From positions 2,480,001 to 2,544,000 of the forward strand of contig NZ_CP116034.1 of NCBI RefSeq assembly GCF_027945075.1: a DNA stretch of 64,000 nucleotides. The letters are read 5' to 3'. This stretch comes from Chryseobacterium sp. CY350 (lineage in GTDB: Bacteria; Bacteroidota; Bacteroidia; Flavobacteriales; Weeksellaceae). The position numbers and the translations under genes are program-made. Below are positions 1,798 to 22,217 of this stretch, piece after piece. Position 1 is the stretch's first letter. Each line of letters starts with the position of its first letter. The notes beneath the pieces were generated by a model. The model saw nothing but the letters and a program-made list of their open reading frames with translations. It did not search any database and was not told where the DNA came from.

Positions 1798-2997
1798 TTA
1801 TAAAACTTCAATCTGATTTCTCAAAAGATCTTCAAATTCATCTCTTTTTCTGATCAGATGAGCTTTTCCGTCTAAGAAAAGAACTTCCGCCGGTTTTAGT
1901 CTCGAATTGAAATTCGTACTCATCTCAAAACCGTAAGCTCCCGCAGTATGGAAAGCCAAAACATCGCCTTCTCTTACCTCATTCAGCTTTCTGTCCCAAG
2001 CAAAAGTATCTGTCTCACAGATATTTCCAACTACCGTATAAATTCTTTCCGCACCTTTTGGGTTTGATAAATTTTCGATGGTATGATAAGAATCGTAGAA
2101 CATAGGACGAATCAAATGGTTGAATCCCGAATTTACTCCAACAAAAACAGTTGCCGTAGTTTGCTTGATGACATTAGCTTTCACTAATAAATAACCACAT
2201 TTCCCAACGAGAAATTTCCCAGGCTCGAACCAAAGCTCAAACTTCTTTCCTGTTTCTTTAGAAAAATCAGCAATTGCTTTTTCAACTTTTTTGCCTAGAG
2301 ATTTCACATCAGTTTCCATATCGCTTTCCTGATAAGGAATTTTGAAGCCGCTTCCCATATCGAGATATTTCAGATTCGGAAAATGTTCAGACAACTCAAG
2401 CATGATTTCCAGTGCCTGTAAAAACACTTCAGGATCTTTAATTTCGCTTCCTGTGTGCATATGAAGACCTTCTACATTCAGATTGGTGCTTTTCATCACA
2501 CGCTCAATGTGACGCATTTGATGAATAGAAATTCCGAATTTAGAATCGATATGTCCTGTAGAAATTTTATGATTTCCGCCCGCATAAATGTGCGGATTGA
2601 TTCTTACAAAAATAGGATATGTATTCCCGTATTTGTTCCCGAACTGCTCAAGAATTGATATATTATCAATGTTGATATGAACACCGTGCATCATCGCCTC
2701 TTCAATTTCAGCTAAATCAACACAATTGGGAGTAAATAGTATTTTATCTTTCGTAAAGCCAGCCTTTAAGCCTAATTTTACTTCGCTGATGGAGACACAA
2801 TCCAAAGAAGCGCCAAGATTCTTAATGTATTTTAATATATTGATGTTCGTTAAAGCCTTTGCAGCATAAAAGAACTTGGTATGTTTCAGAAAAGAAGACG
2901 TAAGTTTCTCGTATTGATTTTTAATAGATTCGGCATCATAAACATATACCGGTGTGCCAAATTCCTGGGCAATCTTCAATAATTCTTTTGGGTTCAT
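1798..2997 (-). CDS. lysA: Diaminopimelate decarboxylase
   Basis: Catalyses the last step of lysine synthesis, meso-diaminopimelate to L-lysine plus CO2, using pyridoxal phosphate in the cytoplasm. The 399-residue length suits the family. Visible are the cofactor lysine K47 in FFYAAKALTN, HMHTGSEI, a glycine-rich phosphate-binding stretch GSGFKIPY, EPGKFLV, and the substrate-side motif CETDTF near residue 323. The ATG start (MNPKELLKIA) lies 16 bases after the T run of a terminator hairpin. That hairpin is preceded by a 25-codon lysine-rich ORF and a competing hairpin arm, which together suggest attenuation by lysine supply (see findings). The gene has its own terminator and no co-transcribed partner. 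Confidence 0.95.
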   Translation of the reverse strand: MNPKELLKIAQEFGTPVYVYDAESIKNQYEKLTSSFLKHTKFFYAAKALTNINILKYIKNLGASLDCVSISEVKLGLKAGFTKDKILFTPNCVDLAEIEEAMMHGVHINIDNISILEQFGNKYGNTYPIFVRINPHIYAGGNHKISTGHIDSKFGISIHQMRHIERVMKSTNLNVEGLHMHTGSEIKDPEVFLQALEIMLELSEHFPNLKYLDMGSGFKIPYQESDMETDVKSLGKKVEKAIADFSKETGKKFELWFEPGKFLVGKCGYLLVKANVIKQTTATVFVGVNSGFNHLIRPMFYDSYHTIENLSNPKGAERIYTVVGNICETDTFAWDRKLNEVREGDVLAFHTAGAYGFEMSTNFNSRLKPAEVLFLDGKAHLIRKRDEFEDLLRNQIEVL

Positions 2998-3013: not shown

Positions 3014-3046
3014 AAAAAAAGGCAGATCCTTCGAAAAGAGTCTGCC
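3014..3046 (-). terminator. Terminator in the lysA leader (candidate attenuator)
   Basis: On the minus strand the stem GGCAGA/TCTGCC, extended inward through one mismatch to a TTCG loop, is followed by seven T residues, ending 16 bases before the lysA ATG. The left arm GGCAGACT (3046-3039) can instead pair over eight bases, one a G-U wobble, with AGTTTGCC (3075-3068), which lies just after the stop codon of the small upstream ORF. The two structures exclude each other, as in classical transcription attenuation. Confidence 0.7.
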
Positions 3047-3076
3047 ACATTCATTATTTTTATGCAAGGCAAACTT

Positions 3077-3154
3077 CTAGGTATTCCAAACCTTTGAAAA
3101 CTTTACAGCTCCCTTCTTTCCGGTTTGTTTTTGTTTAAAATTCTGCATTGCCAT
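3077..3154 (-). CDS. Putative lysine-rich leader peptide of lysA, 25 aa
   Basis: A 25-codon ORF (begins MAMQNFKQKQTGKK, ends KVWNT) lies between a promoter-like TATTTTTG element and the lysA leader terminator. Six of 25 residues are lysine (positions 7, 9, 13, 14, 18, 21). The stop TAG at 3079-3077 is one base upstream of the arm AGTTTGCC that can pair with the terminator. A ribosome finishing the ORF would cover that arm, while one stalled at Lys18 or Lys21 would leave it free. This is the arrangement expected of a leader peptide that senses charged tRNA-Lys. The start could also be Met3. No homologue is known to me, and the peptide role is inference. Confidence 0.5.
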   Translation of the reverse strand: MAMQNFKQKQTGKKGAVKFSKVWNT

Positions 3155-3168
3155 TTTTAATTCTATTG

Positions 3169-3176
3169 CAAAAATA
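3169..3176 (-). promoter_or_regulatory. -7 element for the lysA leader transcript
   Basis: TATTTTTG on the minus strand matches the Bacteroidota -7 consensus TAnnTTTG and ends 14 bases before the leader-peptide ATG at 3154. It predicts a very short untranslated leader before the small ORF. No clear TTG lies at the -33 position, so the match is to the -7 element only. Confidence 0.5.
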
Positions 3177-3251: not shown

Positions 3252-4475
3252 TTATTTCGGTAATGCCAGCGTTTCAAAATCCCCACGAAGCAAGGCCAGT
3301 TGCAATTCGTTGTTCATATCTGCCGTAGAAAGCGGTAAATCTAATTTTAATTTTGAAATTTTACTTAAAGTCTGAATTTGAGTAAACAAATCATAAAAGC
3401 CATAGGAAACCACTCGTCCGTTTTCGATGATCAAAAATAATTTTTCACCCAGTTTTCTTCCTGCGCCCAACCACATTTCGTTTCTCTTTTTAAAATCAAT
3501 CTTCTTTTTAAAAACCTCAACATCAGCATATTCTTCAAATTTCGCAATATACTGTACCGCTTTAGAACCCTGTGTAAAAGATCTGAATTTTAGGATTGGC
3601 TTCTCATTTTTGTTAAGGGTATTTTTTTCTACGATATATTTATTATTCCTAAAATAAAGTCCGTAAGCAAGCGTTTCTCGCTTCTTAATATTTTTAGAAT
3701 TCTGAATTAGTTTAGCAATAATATCTGTTCCCGTCAGTTCAAAATGAATCTGTTCCACTTCCTTTTGAATCTCAACAAACTTCTTTGATTTTGAATTAAA
3801 AAGTTTCTTCGAAAACCTGTTGATATCCTGAACGTAATCTGAAAAAATAATTTTCCCCGATTCGTTCTGAAAATAAACAAACCCTTTTTCTCCGGGTAAA
3901 TCCTGAGTTAAAACCTTTATCTTATTAATGTAAGTTTTCGCATTTGTTTCCTCGTGCTGTTTCTGAATAATTTCATTCTCGGTATCTTTAGAAACCAGCA
4001 GTCTGAATAATTCTAAAGTAGCCCTCGCATCACCTTCTGCCCTGTGTGCATTAACCAACGGAATCCCCAATGATCGCACAAGTTTTCCTAAAGAATAACT
4101 TACCTCATCCGGAATCAGTTTTTTCGCTAAAGGAATTGTATCTAAAGTATTGATCTTATAATCGTAACCCAACCTCTGAAAAGATTGCCGAAGCATTCTG
4201 TAATCAAAATCGATATTGTGCCCCACCAAAGTTGTACCTTCTGTAATTTCAATGACTCTTTTTGCCAATTCATGAAATTTTGGGGCAGTTTTCACCATAT
4301 TGGGTGTAATATTCGTCAGTTTCTGCACAAAAGGGGTAATATCGCTTTCCGGATTTACGAGAGAGATAAACTGGTCGACAATTTTATGACCATCGTATCT
4401 GTAGATGGCAATATCTATAATGCATTCTTTCCTGAAACCTGCACCATTACTTTCTATGTCTATTATTGAATACAT
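3252..4475 (-). CDS. DnaQ-like 3'-5' exonuclease fused to a GIY-YIG-like domain
   Basis: A probable DNA repair or proofreading-type nuclease of 407 residues. Residues 1-165 form a DEDDh exonuclease: D6 and E8 in IIDIESNG, VGHNIDFDYRML, and the final NAHRAEGDARAT with the catalytic His and Asp. A second region from about 195 (PGEKGFVYFQNESGKIIFSDYV) looks like a degenerate GIY-YIG core of the UvrC/Cho type. The rest, to residue 407, is not recognised. The same two-domain layout is common in Bacteroidota proteins annotated as exonuclease domain-containing. ATG start; the gene is followed by the lysA leader region and has no evident operon partner. The molecular substrate is unknown. Confidence 0.8.
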   Translation of the reverse strand: MYSIIDIESNGAGFRKECIIDIAIYRYDGHKIVDQFISLVNPESDITPFVQKLTNITPNMVKTAPKFHELAKRVIEITEGTTLVGHNIDFDYRMLRQSFQRLGYDYKINTLDTIPLAKKLIPDEVSYSLGKLVRSLGIPLVNAHRAEGDARATLELFRLLVSKDTENEIIQKQHEETNAKTYINKIKVLTQDLPGEKGFVYFQNESGKIIFSDYVQDINRFSKKLFNSKSKKFVEIQKEVEQIHFELTGTDIIAKLIQNSKNIKKRETLAYGLYFRNNKYIVEKNTLNKNEKPILKFRSFTQGSKAVQYIAKFEEYADVEVFKKKIDFKKRNEMWLGAGRKLGEKLFLIIENGRVVSYGFYDLFTQIQTLSKISKLKLDLPLSTADMNNELQLALLRGDFETLALPK

Positions 4476-11111: not shown

Positions 11112-11185
11112 TCCTCCTTAGCTCAGTTGGTTAGAGCATCTGACTGTTAATCAGAGGGTCCTTGGTTCGAGCCCAAGAGGAGGAG
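11112..11185 (+). tRNA. tRNA-Asn (GTT)
   Basis: A 74-base cloverleaf: acceptor TCCTCCT/AGGAGGA, D arm GCTCAGTTGGTTAGAGC, anticodon stem TCTGA/TCAGA with loop CTGTTAA giving anticodon GTT, T arm CTTGG/CCAAG with TTCGAGC, and discriminator G as expected for asparagine. The 3' CCA is not encoded. A second identical copy lies at 11367. Confidence 0.95.
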
Positions 11186-11186
11186 C

Positions 11187-11366: not shown

Positions 11367-11440
11367 TCCTCCTTAGCTCAGTTGGTTAGAGCATCTGACT
11401 GTTAATCAGAGGGTCCTTGGTTCGAGCCCAAGAGGAGGAG
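11367..11440 (+). tRNA. tRNA-Asn (GTT), second copy
   Basis: Identical over all 74 bases to the tRNA at 11112-11185, with the same anticodon GTT and discriminator G. The flanking DNA after the tRNA is unrelated and has a different terminator. Confidence 0.95.
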
Positions 11441-11441
11441 C

Positions 11442-20797: not shown

Positions 20798-22078
20798 TTA
20801 AATTCCGAAAGCGGATTTAATTTCTTCTACTTTGTCTAATTTTTCCCAGGTAAAGAATTCCAGACCTGTAAGAGTTAGTTCATTTTTATGACCTTTATTG
20901 AAAGTTTTATCAGCAACAAAATGCTCTCTTCCCATGTGACCGTAAGAAGCAGTTTCCTGATAAATAGGATTTCTCAACTTCAAATTTTGCTCTATTGCAT
21001 AAGGTCTAAGATCGAAAATTGTAGAAACTTTTTTAGCAATTTCTCCATCATTCAAATCTGTTTTTGAAGTTCCGTAAGTGTTGATGTACAAACCACAAGG
21101 TTCAGCAACACCAATTGCATAAGAAACCTGTACCAAAACTTCATCTGCAACACCTGCAGCTACTAAATTCTTAGCAATGTGTCTTGTTGCATAAGCAGCA
21201 CTTCTGTCAACTTTTGAAGGATCTTTTCCAGAGAAAGCACCACCACCGTGAGCTCCTTTTCCACCGTAAGTATCAACGATGATTTTTCTTCCTGTCAAAC
21301 CTGTATCTCCGTGAGGACCTCCGATTACGAATTTTCCGGTTGGATTGATGTGATATTTAATTTGATCGTTGAATAAAGCTTTGATTTCCTCAGTCTGCAA
21401 AGCAACAACTCTAGGAATCAAAATATTTTTGATGTCTTCTCTGATTTTATTCAGCATTTCCTCTTCAGCAGCAAAATCATCATGCTGAGTAGAAACTACG
21501 ATAGAATCAATTCTTACCGGTTTGTGATCGTCAGAATACTCGATTGTTACCTGAGATTTCGCATCCGGACGAAGATATTTTATTTCAGAATCTTCTCTTC
21601 TTATCGCAGAAAGTTCTTTAAGAATTGTATGTGCCAAATCCAAAGCCAAAGGCATATAATTTGCCGTTTCGTTGGTTGCATAACCGAACATCATTCCCTG
21701 ATCGCCAGCTCCTTGTGCATTTGCTTTAGCTTCGAAAGACTCGTCATTTACAGCTCTGTCGACACCTTGATTAATATCCGGAGATTGCTCATGAATTGCA
21801 GAGATCACCCCGCAAGAATCACCATTGAACATATATTCACCTTTTGTATAACCAATTCCGTTGATTACTTCTCTTGCAATCGTCTGTACATCGAGATAAG
21901 CACCAGATTTTACCTCACCTGCCAAAACTACCTGACCCGTAGTCACCAAAGTTTCACAAGCTACTTTTGAAGTTTTGTCGTATGCTAAAAAATTATCGAT
22001 TAGTGCATCAGAAATCTGATCGGCAATTTTATCCGGATGACCTTCTGAAACTGATTCAGACGTAAATAAATAAGACAT
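20798..22078 (-). CDS. metK: S-adenosylmethionine synthetase
   Basis: Makes S-adenosylmethionine from methionine and ATP in the cytoplasm. The 426 residues show [20 protein letters not shown] at the N-terminus, [12 protein letters not shown] in the middle, and the P-loop-like [19 protein letters not shown]. The length is slightly above the approx. 384 of E. coli, as in other Bacteroidota. It has a textbook promoter at 22218-22248 and a leader of about 130 bases containing a SAM-II riboswitch, so its own product should switch it off. Confidence 0.97.
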
Positions 22079-22153
22079 ATTATTCTTGTATTTTTAAATT
22101 AAATGTAGAAGAAAAAAATGAATAACTGCCCAGAAAAAGCTAAAAAGAATATA

Positions 22154-22203
22154 CTGTTTTAGCATTTTTTTAGAGAGGTTGCAATCAGGTCAAATTTTTC
22201 CTC
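22154..22203 (-). ncRNA. SAM-II riboswitch upstream of metK
   Basis: On the minus strand the leader reads GAGG, then AUUUGACC and UUGCAA in the loop, CCUC closing P1 (22203-22200 with 22178-22175), then UAAAAAAAUGCUAAAACAG. The order AUUUGACC...UUGCA...UAAA..GCUAAAA is the conserved signature of SAM-II (the metA motif of alphaproteobacteria and Bacteroidota). CUG in the loop can pair with the final CAG as the pseudoknot. The pattern was recognised from memory of the family, not by a covariance search. Confidence 0.82.
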
Positions 22204-22217
22204 GTTAATAACGATGG

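Follow-up and report, generated by a model that had tools for sequence, protein, structure and literature searches.

Trp, His, Phe, Thr, Leu, and Ile/Val are the amino acids best known for control by leader attenuators, and the trp and his attenuators are represented by the Rfam families Trp_leader and His_leader; 1:2 pairing is not required in all ribosome-mediated attenuators. The control of lysine genes is textbook riboswitch territory, with the lysine riboswitch (L-box, RF00168) controlling lysine genes in other bacteria, partly by way of a terminator. In the portion of their paper drawn on here, Naville and Gautheret (2010) stated that, to their knowledge, leader peptide systems had been demonstrated in no groups other than Proteobacteria and Actinobacteria, the ermC leader aside, and added Firmicutes to these; the main text of the paper makes no mention of lysine (PMC2965389). 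A transcriptome study of F. psychrophilum, which belongs to the same phylum as the element described below, inferred leader-peptide attenuation before amino-acid operons and included pheA and hisG among the conserved structured 5′ elements, according to the sections of PMC9723704 used here, the main text of which mentions neither lysine nor lysA. Short ORFs resembling leader peptides have been noted in Bacteroides thetaiotaomicron (PMC7366714, in excerpt). The nearest case that we met, again in excerpt, is a leader proposed in Sinorhizobium, which contains six codons for Thr and three for Lys and precedes a gene for aspartate dehydrogenase (PMC10117765); Corbino 2005 concerns speF and not lysA in the part consulted (PMC1273637). 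Among the literature matches listed, mostly from outside subscription journals and in part as excerpts, no lysine leader attenuator before lysA was present, which is not proof of novelty.

The present analysis concerns the region upstream of lysA in Chryseobacterium sp. CY350, contained in a window of 64,000 nucleotides, by which we mean the whole stretch of DNA that was analyzed. A preliminary description had proposed a translation-coupled lysine attenuator here, and all of the features that it named (a −7 element, an ORF with six lysines, an arm, a spacer, a terminator, and lysA) were found on the minus strand where it had placed them. The features as we now read them are as follows, in window coordinates.

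1798..2997, minus strand: lysA, diaminopimelate decarboxylase, the presumed regulated gene (TIGR01048, 386.1 bits, cut-off 297.9)
3014..3020, minus strand: terminator U-tract, seven T in the sequence
3021..3046, minus strand: intrinsic terminator hairpin GGCAGACTCTTTTCGAAGGATCTGCC (93.6% of cells paired)
3064..3079, minus strand: region 2, comprising the stop codon, the antiterminator 5′ arm, and the following UUGC
3068..3078, minus strand: antiterminator 5′ arm AGAAGTTTGCC (paired with the left arm of the terminator in 88.0% of cells)
3077..3148, minus strand: leader ORF of 23 codons plus TAG, peptide MQNFKQKQTGKKGAVKFSKVWNT with six Lys, recognized by the invariance of Lys codons
3087..3092, minus strand: helix P2, 3′ strand, GGTTTG
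3095..3114, minus strand: hairpin P1 inside the ORF, in a fixed codon register (37 distinct 20-mers)
3122..3127, minus strand: helix P2, 5′ strand, CAAACC
3136..3151, minus strand: region 1, the leader start region, which can pair with region 2 according to the minimum free energy (MFE) structure of the window’s leader and pairing probabilities
3169..3176, minus strand: −7 promoter element TATTTTTG, of the form TAnnTTTG, which we take to be the Bacteroidetes-type −7 consensus
3252–4475, minus strand, in common with lysA: upstream gene with an exonuclease domain (PF00929)

The TAG stop of the leader lies at 3077, and the arm proper, AGTTTGCC at 3068–3075 on the minus strand, is separated by a 21-base spacer from the terminator, with whose left strand it forms eight pairs, one of them G-U (AGTTTGCC with GGCAGACT); the ATG of lysA at 2997 on the same strand follows downstream of the U-tract. 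The ORF had been read as 25 codons from an ATG at 3154, a start that occurred in no other leader locus compared; relatives read AGCAATGCA... at the start region, which places the conserved start at the ATG at 3148 and shortens the ORF to 23 codons.

For comparison, 195 loci were assembled, including same-species duplicates from two collections, of which 128 carried a leader by rule, two more (L152 and L161) by eye, and 65 none; the 130 elements reduced to 103 distinct ones, and a further 20 loci, from the order but outside the family, were counted apart. Four alignments were drawn from these: A1 with the 37 distinct P1 20-mers (L152 hand-shifted by one base), A2 with 44 of the 103 distinct elements (the T-run rule having mis-set several ends of the others), A3 with 43 of the 78 elements of the window’s type (VWN-type), and A4 with 20 of the 21 others. 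One locus, L153, was excluded from the peptide, spacing, pairing-probability, start-region-swap, promoter, and ribosome-model counts for having no ATG far enough upstream.

The preliminary description had looked to relatives for a conserved short ORF, conserved Lys codons, and compensatory changes among the arms and the terminator, and all three were found. The short ORF was kept in related genera, with 4–9 Lys codons per leader (81 elements), and Lys 5, 11, 12, and 19 were invariant in all 60 distinct VWN-type ORFs, in which position 8 was Lys in 47 and position 16 was Lys in 49 and Arg in 11. Lys codons amounted to about 25% in frame (80 distinct leader ORFs), against 16–18% in the other two frames of the 60 VWN-type ORFs and 9–13% in those of the 20 others. 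Peptides differed between genera, and the Lys codons, the distance from stop to arm, the arms, the terminator, and the −7 box were kept; in a single leader, L208, Glu replaces the last conserved Lys. The conserved codons are thus those of the pathway’s end product. Two stall codons had been suggested, Lys18 and Lys21 of the longer ORF, and the latter (K19 in the 23-codon numbering) is among the invariant positions but the former (K16) is the one held by Arg in 11 of 60; judged by conservation, K19 and the KK pair K11 and K12 appear to be the better sensing codons. Of 89 distinct upstream regions, 88 carried the motif TAnnTTTG in the 45 nt that precede the leader start, with its end 16–29 nt before that start, as compared with 1.2% of mononucleotide shuffles, and going by conservation a short leader ORF appears to be maintained between promoter and gene.

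Lysines are not the only residues retained. G13, F17, V20, W21, and N22 were also invariant in the 60 distinct ORFs and S18 was kept in 59, as might be expected if lysine, a lysine-related metabolite, or a drug caused the peptide itself (KGKKxFSK / GKKGxVKFSKVWN) to stall in the exit tunnel, in place of stalling on empty tRNA. Nascent-peptide arrest in the exit tunnel is the mechanism of the TnaC and Erm leaders. The codons for G13, F17, S18, and V20 sit, however, in P1 or in P2, and across genera residues change while the pairs stay (A-V-K versus K-K-F inside P1). P1 had 92.6% of its cells paired in the 37 distinct 20-mers, compared with 38–79% for slid versions, and changes on both sides in three pairs; pair 7–14 was C-G in 23 sequences, A-U in eight, and unpaired in six, and pair 8–13 was U-A, A-U, U-G, G-U, or C-G and unpaired in six, with C-G/A-U and U-A/A-U as the compensatory pair types. 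Its outer A-U pair is lost in the window. The pairing of P1 would help to account for the retention of G, F, and S, the non-Lys positions that KGKKFFSK and KGAVKFSK have in common. In helix P2 (CAAACC/GGUUUG in the window) all 43 sequences were paired (100%), with changes almost all one-sided. The C termini also vary in other genera (VD, GV, VT, or others), which again speaks against arrest by the peptide, while the conservation of W21 and N22, which P1 and P2 do not account for, speaks for it. Since P1 and P2 account for several of the conserved non-Lys residues, we do not adopt peptide arrest as the main reading and consider it improbable. The W21 and N22 codons (TGG AAT, 3083–3088, minus strand) are invariant in 60 of 60, lie outside P1, and are covered by P2 only in part.

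The terminator claimed earlier and its antiterminator are both present in the comparative data, although the structure as it had been drawn was incomplete, the ORF-internal hairpin P1 having been overlooked. An intrinsic terminator stands ahead of the structural gene, and its 93.6% of paired cells (44 sequences) was accompanied by both-side changes in five of 11 pairs; P1 and the terminator taken together had both-side changes in eight pairs, a number reached by three of 500 shuffles. The antiterminator was paired in 88.0% of cells in the same number of sequences, as compared with 36–58% for slid versions, with compensatory pair types C-G/U-A and both-side changes in three of 10 pairs; in its pair types it was matched or exceeded by 453 of 500 shuffles and in its number of pairs changed on both sides by 75 of 500, and neither measure stood above shuffles. 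Our model of it bulges one base of the 3′ strand, without which L152 and L174 seem by eye to be better paired, and the window’s own arm is weaker than in most of its relatives in A2. The share of paired cells exceeded all slid versions and all 500 shuffles for P1, for the antiterminator, and for P1 with the terminator. P1 alone also exceeded all 500 shuffles in both-side-change cells and covariation score, as it did in paired cells, and did not in both-side-change pairs (399 of 500 as high) or pair types (192 of 500); as the sequences are related, these shuffle counts are not probabilities.

The window’s leader folds into one extended hairpin plus the terminator (z-score −1.93, with five of 200 shuffles as stable), as do the leaders of many relatives, and such a fold could belong to a metabolite- or protein-binding switch, for instance a new lysine or DAP riboswitch, in which the ORF would be incidental. 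RNAalifold on the diverse set retained P1 and the terminator only, and an RNA that recognizes a ligand leaves unexplained the excess of in-frame Lys codons, the invariant start and Lys codons, and the spacing from stop to arm; we regard this as very unlikely. The search of the window against Rfam returned no match at gathering scores within the element. The absence of an L-box, which had also been asserted, was upheld, as RF00168 had no match in the window or in any of 60 family genomes including the window’s own (under stricter filters), while four of 14 control genomes were positive. Elsewhere in the window, the same collection of families identified a SAM-II riboswitch at 22149–22209 (minus strand, 68.8 bits), about 70 nt before an ORF at 20798–22078 (minus strand) that presumably encodes S-adenosylmethionine synthetase (metK), and two tRNA-Asn (GTT) genes lie about 180 nt apart at 11112–11186 and 11367–11441 (plus strand).

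The spacing of the element agrees with control by a translating ribosome. With the arm placed at its best duplex with the left terminator arm, it started in 77 of 81 elements 1–4 nt past the first base of the stop codon; the distance from the last Lys codon to the arm was 16–23 nt in 78 of 81. Since the footprint of a bacterial ribosome usually reaches about 12 nt past the first base of the A site, the arm would be covered by a ribosome at the stop codon and left free by one at the last Lys codon. In L142 and L169 (genus g11), the antiterminator arm lies within the leader ORF, before the stop codon and not after it. We modeled the nascent RNA up to the left terminator arm at equilibrium, and the expected number of antiterminator pairs in the 78 VWN-type leaders was 10.6 with the ribosome at the last Lys, 1.9 with the ribosome at the stop, and 9.5 in untranslated RNA; in 20 other leaders the corresponding values were 7.7, 0.7, and 5.0. 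With a Lys-stalled ribosome at least five pairs formed in all 78 VWN-type leaders and in 19 of the 20 others; with the ribosome at the stop, just 26 of the 78, and 18 of the 20, were left with fewer than two pairs. The footprint model fails for L142, because its last counted Lys codon overlaps the arm. The two translated states are thus clearly separated in their predicted means, and of the earlier proposal that a ribosome at the stop hides the arm and one stalled at Lys frees it, the second half holds in the model while the first holds largely and not fully. Alignment and folding model together point to an antiterminator that excludes the terminator, is hidden by the ribosome at the stop, and is freed at the control codons.

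Taken together, the ORF, its Lys codons, the arms, the terminator, P1, the spacing, and the link to lysA, as they appear from the comparison of sequences, lead us to regard the element as very probably a leader-peptide (ribosome-mediated) transcription attenuator that ties lysA to the supply of lysyl-tRNA. Transcription would start just ahead of the 23-codon Lys-rich ORF, and P1 would probably slow the RNA polymerase by pausing, keeping ribosome and polymerase in step. When charged tRNA-Lys is plentiful, the ribosome would reach the stop codon and cover the arm, the terminator would form, and lysA would be off; when lysine is short, the ribosome would stall at a conserved Lys codon, and the arm, left free, would capture the left terminator strand and allow read-through into lysA. 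We infer both the response to lysine and the stalling of the ribosome.

Pairing of the leader’s own start region would add a further layer to this attenuator. In the MFE structure of the window, the leader start region pairs with the stop codon and arm 2, and RNAalifold on the window’s group proposed part of this pairing unasked, in a slightly shifted register. The pairing probability of the start region was 0.69 in VWN-type leaders versus 0.24 with a shuffled start region (higher in 76 of 76) and 0.53 versus 0.25 in other leaders (higher in 18 of 20). Covariation in this pairing is weak, and swapping start regions between leaders gave no separation of own from foreign (−9.95 versus −9.29 and −10.00 versus −9.86) and no covariation support for 1:2, such that the extra pairing is weakly supported. 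In the spacer, TTGCAT (3062–3067, minus strand) is nearly invariant in the window’s group, which the start-region pairing may partly explain, except for the last two bases. By pairing with arm 2, the start region may hold untranslated RNA in the terminating form; in the equilibrium model, however, the antiterminator still forms in untranslated RNA of the window’s group (the 9.5 pairs given above). Termination without translation is thereby left unexplained, and because the untranslated state is not separated, either kinetic folding or an absence of control without translation must be assumed. It is conceivable, though we are doubtful, that the same RNA gates its own leader through the start region and the arm behind the stop, which would make it a three-state switch (initiation, Lys decoding, and termination), the first lysine-specific leader attenuator, and a coding sequence shaped mainly by RNA pairing.

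A terminator following the exonuclease gene would look much like the one before lysA, and the element might in principle be an ordinary terminator of the upstream transcript accompanied by a chance short ORF. Its distribution bears on this reading. Among 80 named loci fetched by LysA similarity, 79 titled Chryseobacterium and one titled “Weeksellaceae bacterium” with a contig holding only 252 nt upstream, the leader preceded lysA in 65 and was absent in 15. Three candidates (L011, L040, and L065) were dropped, their matches having fallen inside the upstream exonuclease gene. Seven changes between presence and absence were counted on the lysA tree, two of which are forced by well-supported branches; as the tree is unrooted, gain and loss of the leader cannot be told apart. 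Leaderless loci carried the −7 motif 34–44 nt before lysA in 31 of 34 cases (duplicates and three loci of other genera included). Leaderless Chryseobacterium loci include L049, L072, L091, and L102; such species may lack the leader control and offer a natural comparison. In genus g26, 17 of 23 fetched loci had the leader and six had none. It was not seen in the loci fetched from 16 further lysA-bearing genera of the family, at one to four loci per genus, nor in any of the 20 loci of the order that belong to other families; among these 20, a crude rule picked out five short ORFs containing four or more Lys, and as ORFs, compared by eye, none of the five resembled the element.

A covariance model (R1) built from 44 sequences matched 87 of 197 family genomes by hand count, of which at least 28 had supplied a sequence and so match by construction; this number comprises all matches at E ≤ 1.2e-4 except G141, which has no lysA match, and the automatic tally at E ≤ 0.1 was 120 of 197. 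In 71 of the 72 matched genomes in which lysA is known, 16–34 nt separate the end of the element from the beginning of the LysA match downstream; the other 15 of the 87 were outside the lysA searches, and in G255 leader and lysA lie on different contigs. The window’s own genome had one strong match (7e-11), and the next reached E 0.063 only, with no sign from R1 of a second leader elsewhere in it. Seven leaderless Chryseobacterium genomes (G087, G072, G203, G108, G008, G014, and G033) had no R1 match among the matches listed, and five other leaderless genomes (G009, G102, G117, G051, and G045) had matches at E 0.002 or weaker only. Across 296 genomes of the order, 28 of 29 matches at E ≤ 0.001 fell in Weeksellaceae and the remaining one was a gene-end terminator, and across 345 genomes of the class R1 matched only the window’s own genome and one gene-end terminator; since R1 was trained on this family, these searches bound the reach of this form and not of lysine leaders generally. 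Twelve weak R1 matches in 11 genomes (first 330 nt inspected) and the loci L259 and L258 had no lysA by tblastn, and L259 and L258 were rejected as leaders and read as gene ends. That the weak matches inspected were gene-end terminators or without lysA is what a plain terminator would predict; at the lysA locus, on the other hand, a promoter motif sits between the exonuclease gene and the ORF, the ORF has been kept across genera, and relatives, too, show the pairing of the antiterminator arm. The reading as an ordinary terminator is already contradicted by these, and we give it hardly any credence.

Attenuation of lysA in this manner would, from the sequences compared, be a property of part of one family, and it appears to be a known mechanism with an apparently new amino acid, in a lineage in which no L-box was found. 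The window’s own genome also contains a Trp leader, MINSVNKNWWWHSNSSSGLMLLSCC, with WWW before a trpE-like gene (best PF00425 match) and then a terminator (L254, near 4.04 Mb), as well as a His leader, MKPNFLTVHHYHHLC, with HHYHH before hisG (PF01634) and then a terminator (L253, near 0.725 Mb), leaders and terminators in both cases being read by eye; attenuation thus seems to be at home in this lineage. A lysine leader conserved in several genera of a single family extends the list of amino acids with leader attenuators and indicates how lysA may be controlled where the L-box is not found. It also provides a compact RNA family with clear predictions for the Lys codons, the stop-to-arm spacing, and arm swaps, and an example in which base pairing within the mRNA accounts in part for the residues of its leader peptide that are conserved without being regulatory. 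Like the L-box, the element would control a lysine gene by way of a terminator, but it has a conserved ORF in place of an aptamer. With the trp and his attenuators it shares a short ORF with regulatory codons, a stop-adjacent arm that pairs with the left terminator strand, and a U-tract terminator before a biosynthetic gene, and it possibly shares their 1:2, 2:3, and 3:4 logic; it differs from them in apparently sensing Lys, in its target lysA, in its occurrence in Bacteroidota, in having P1 contained entirely in the ORF and flanked on either side by Lys codons, and in having the leader start region as region 1.
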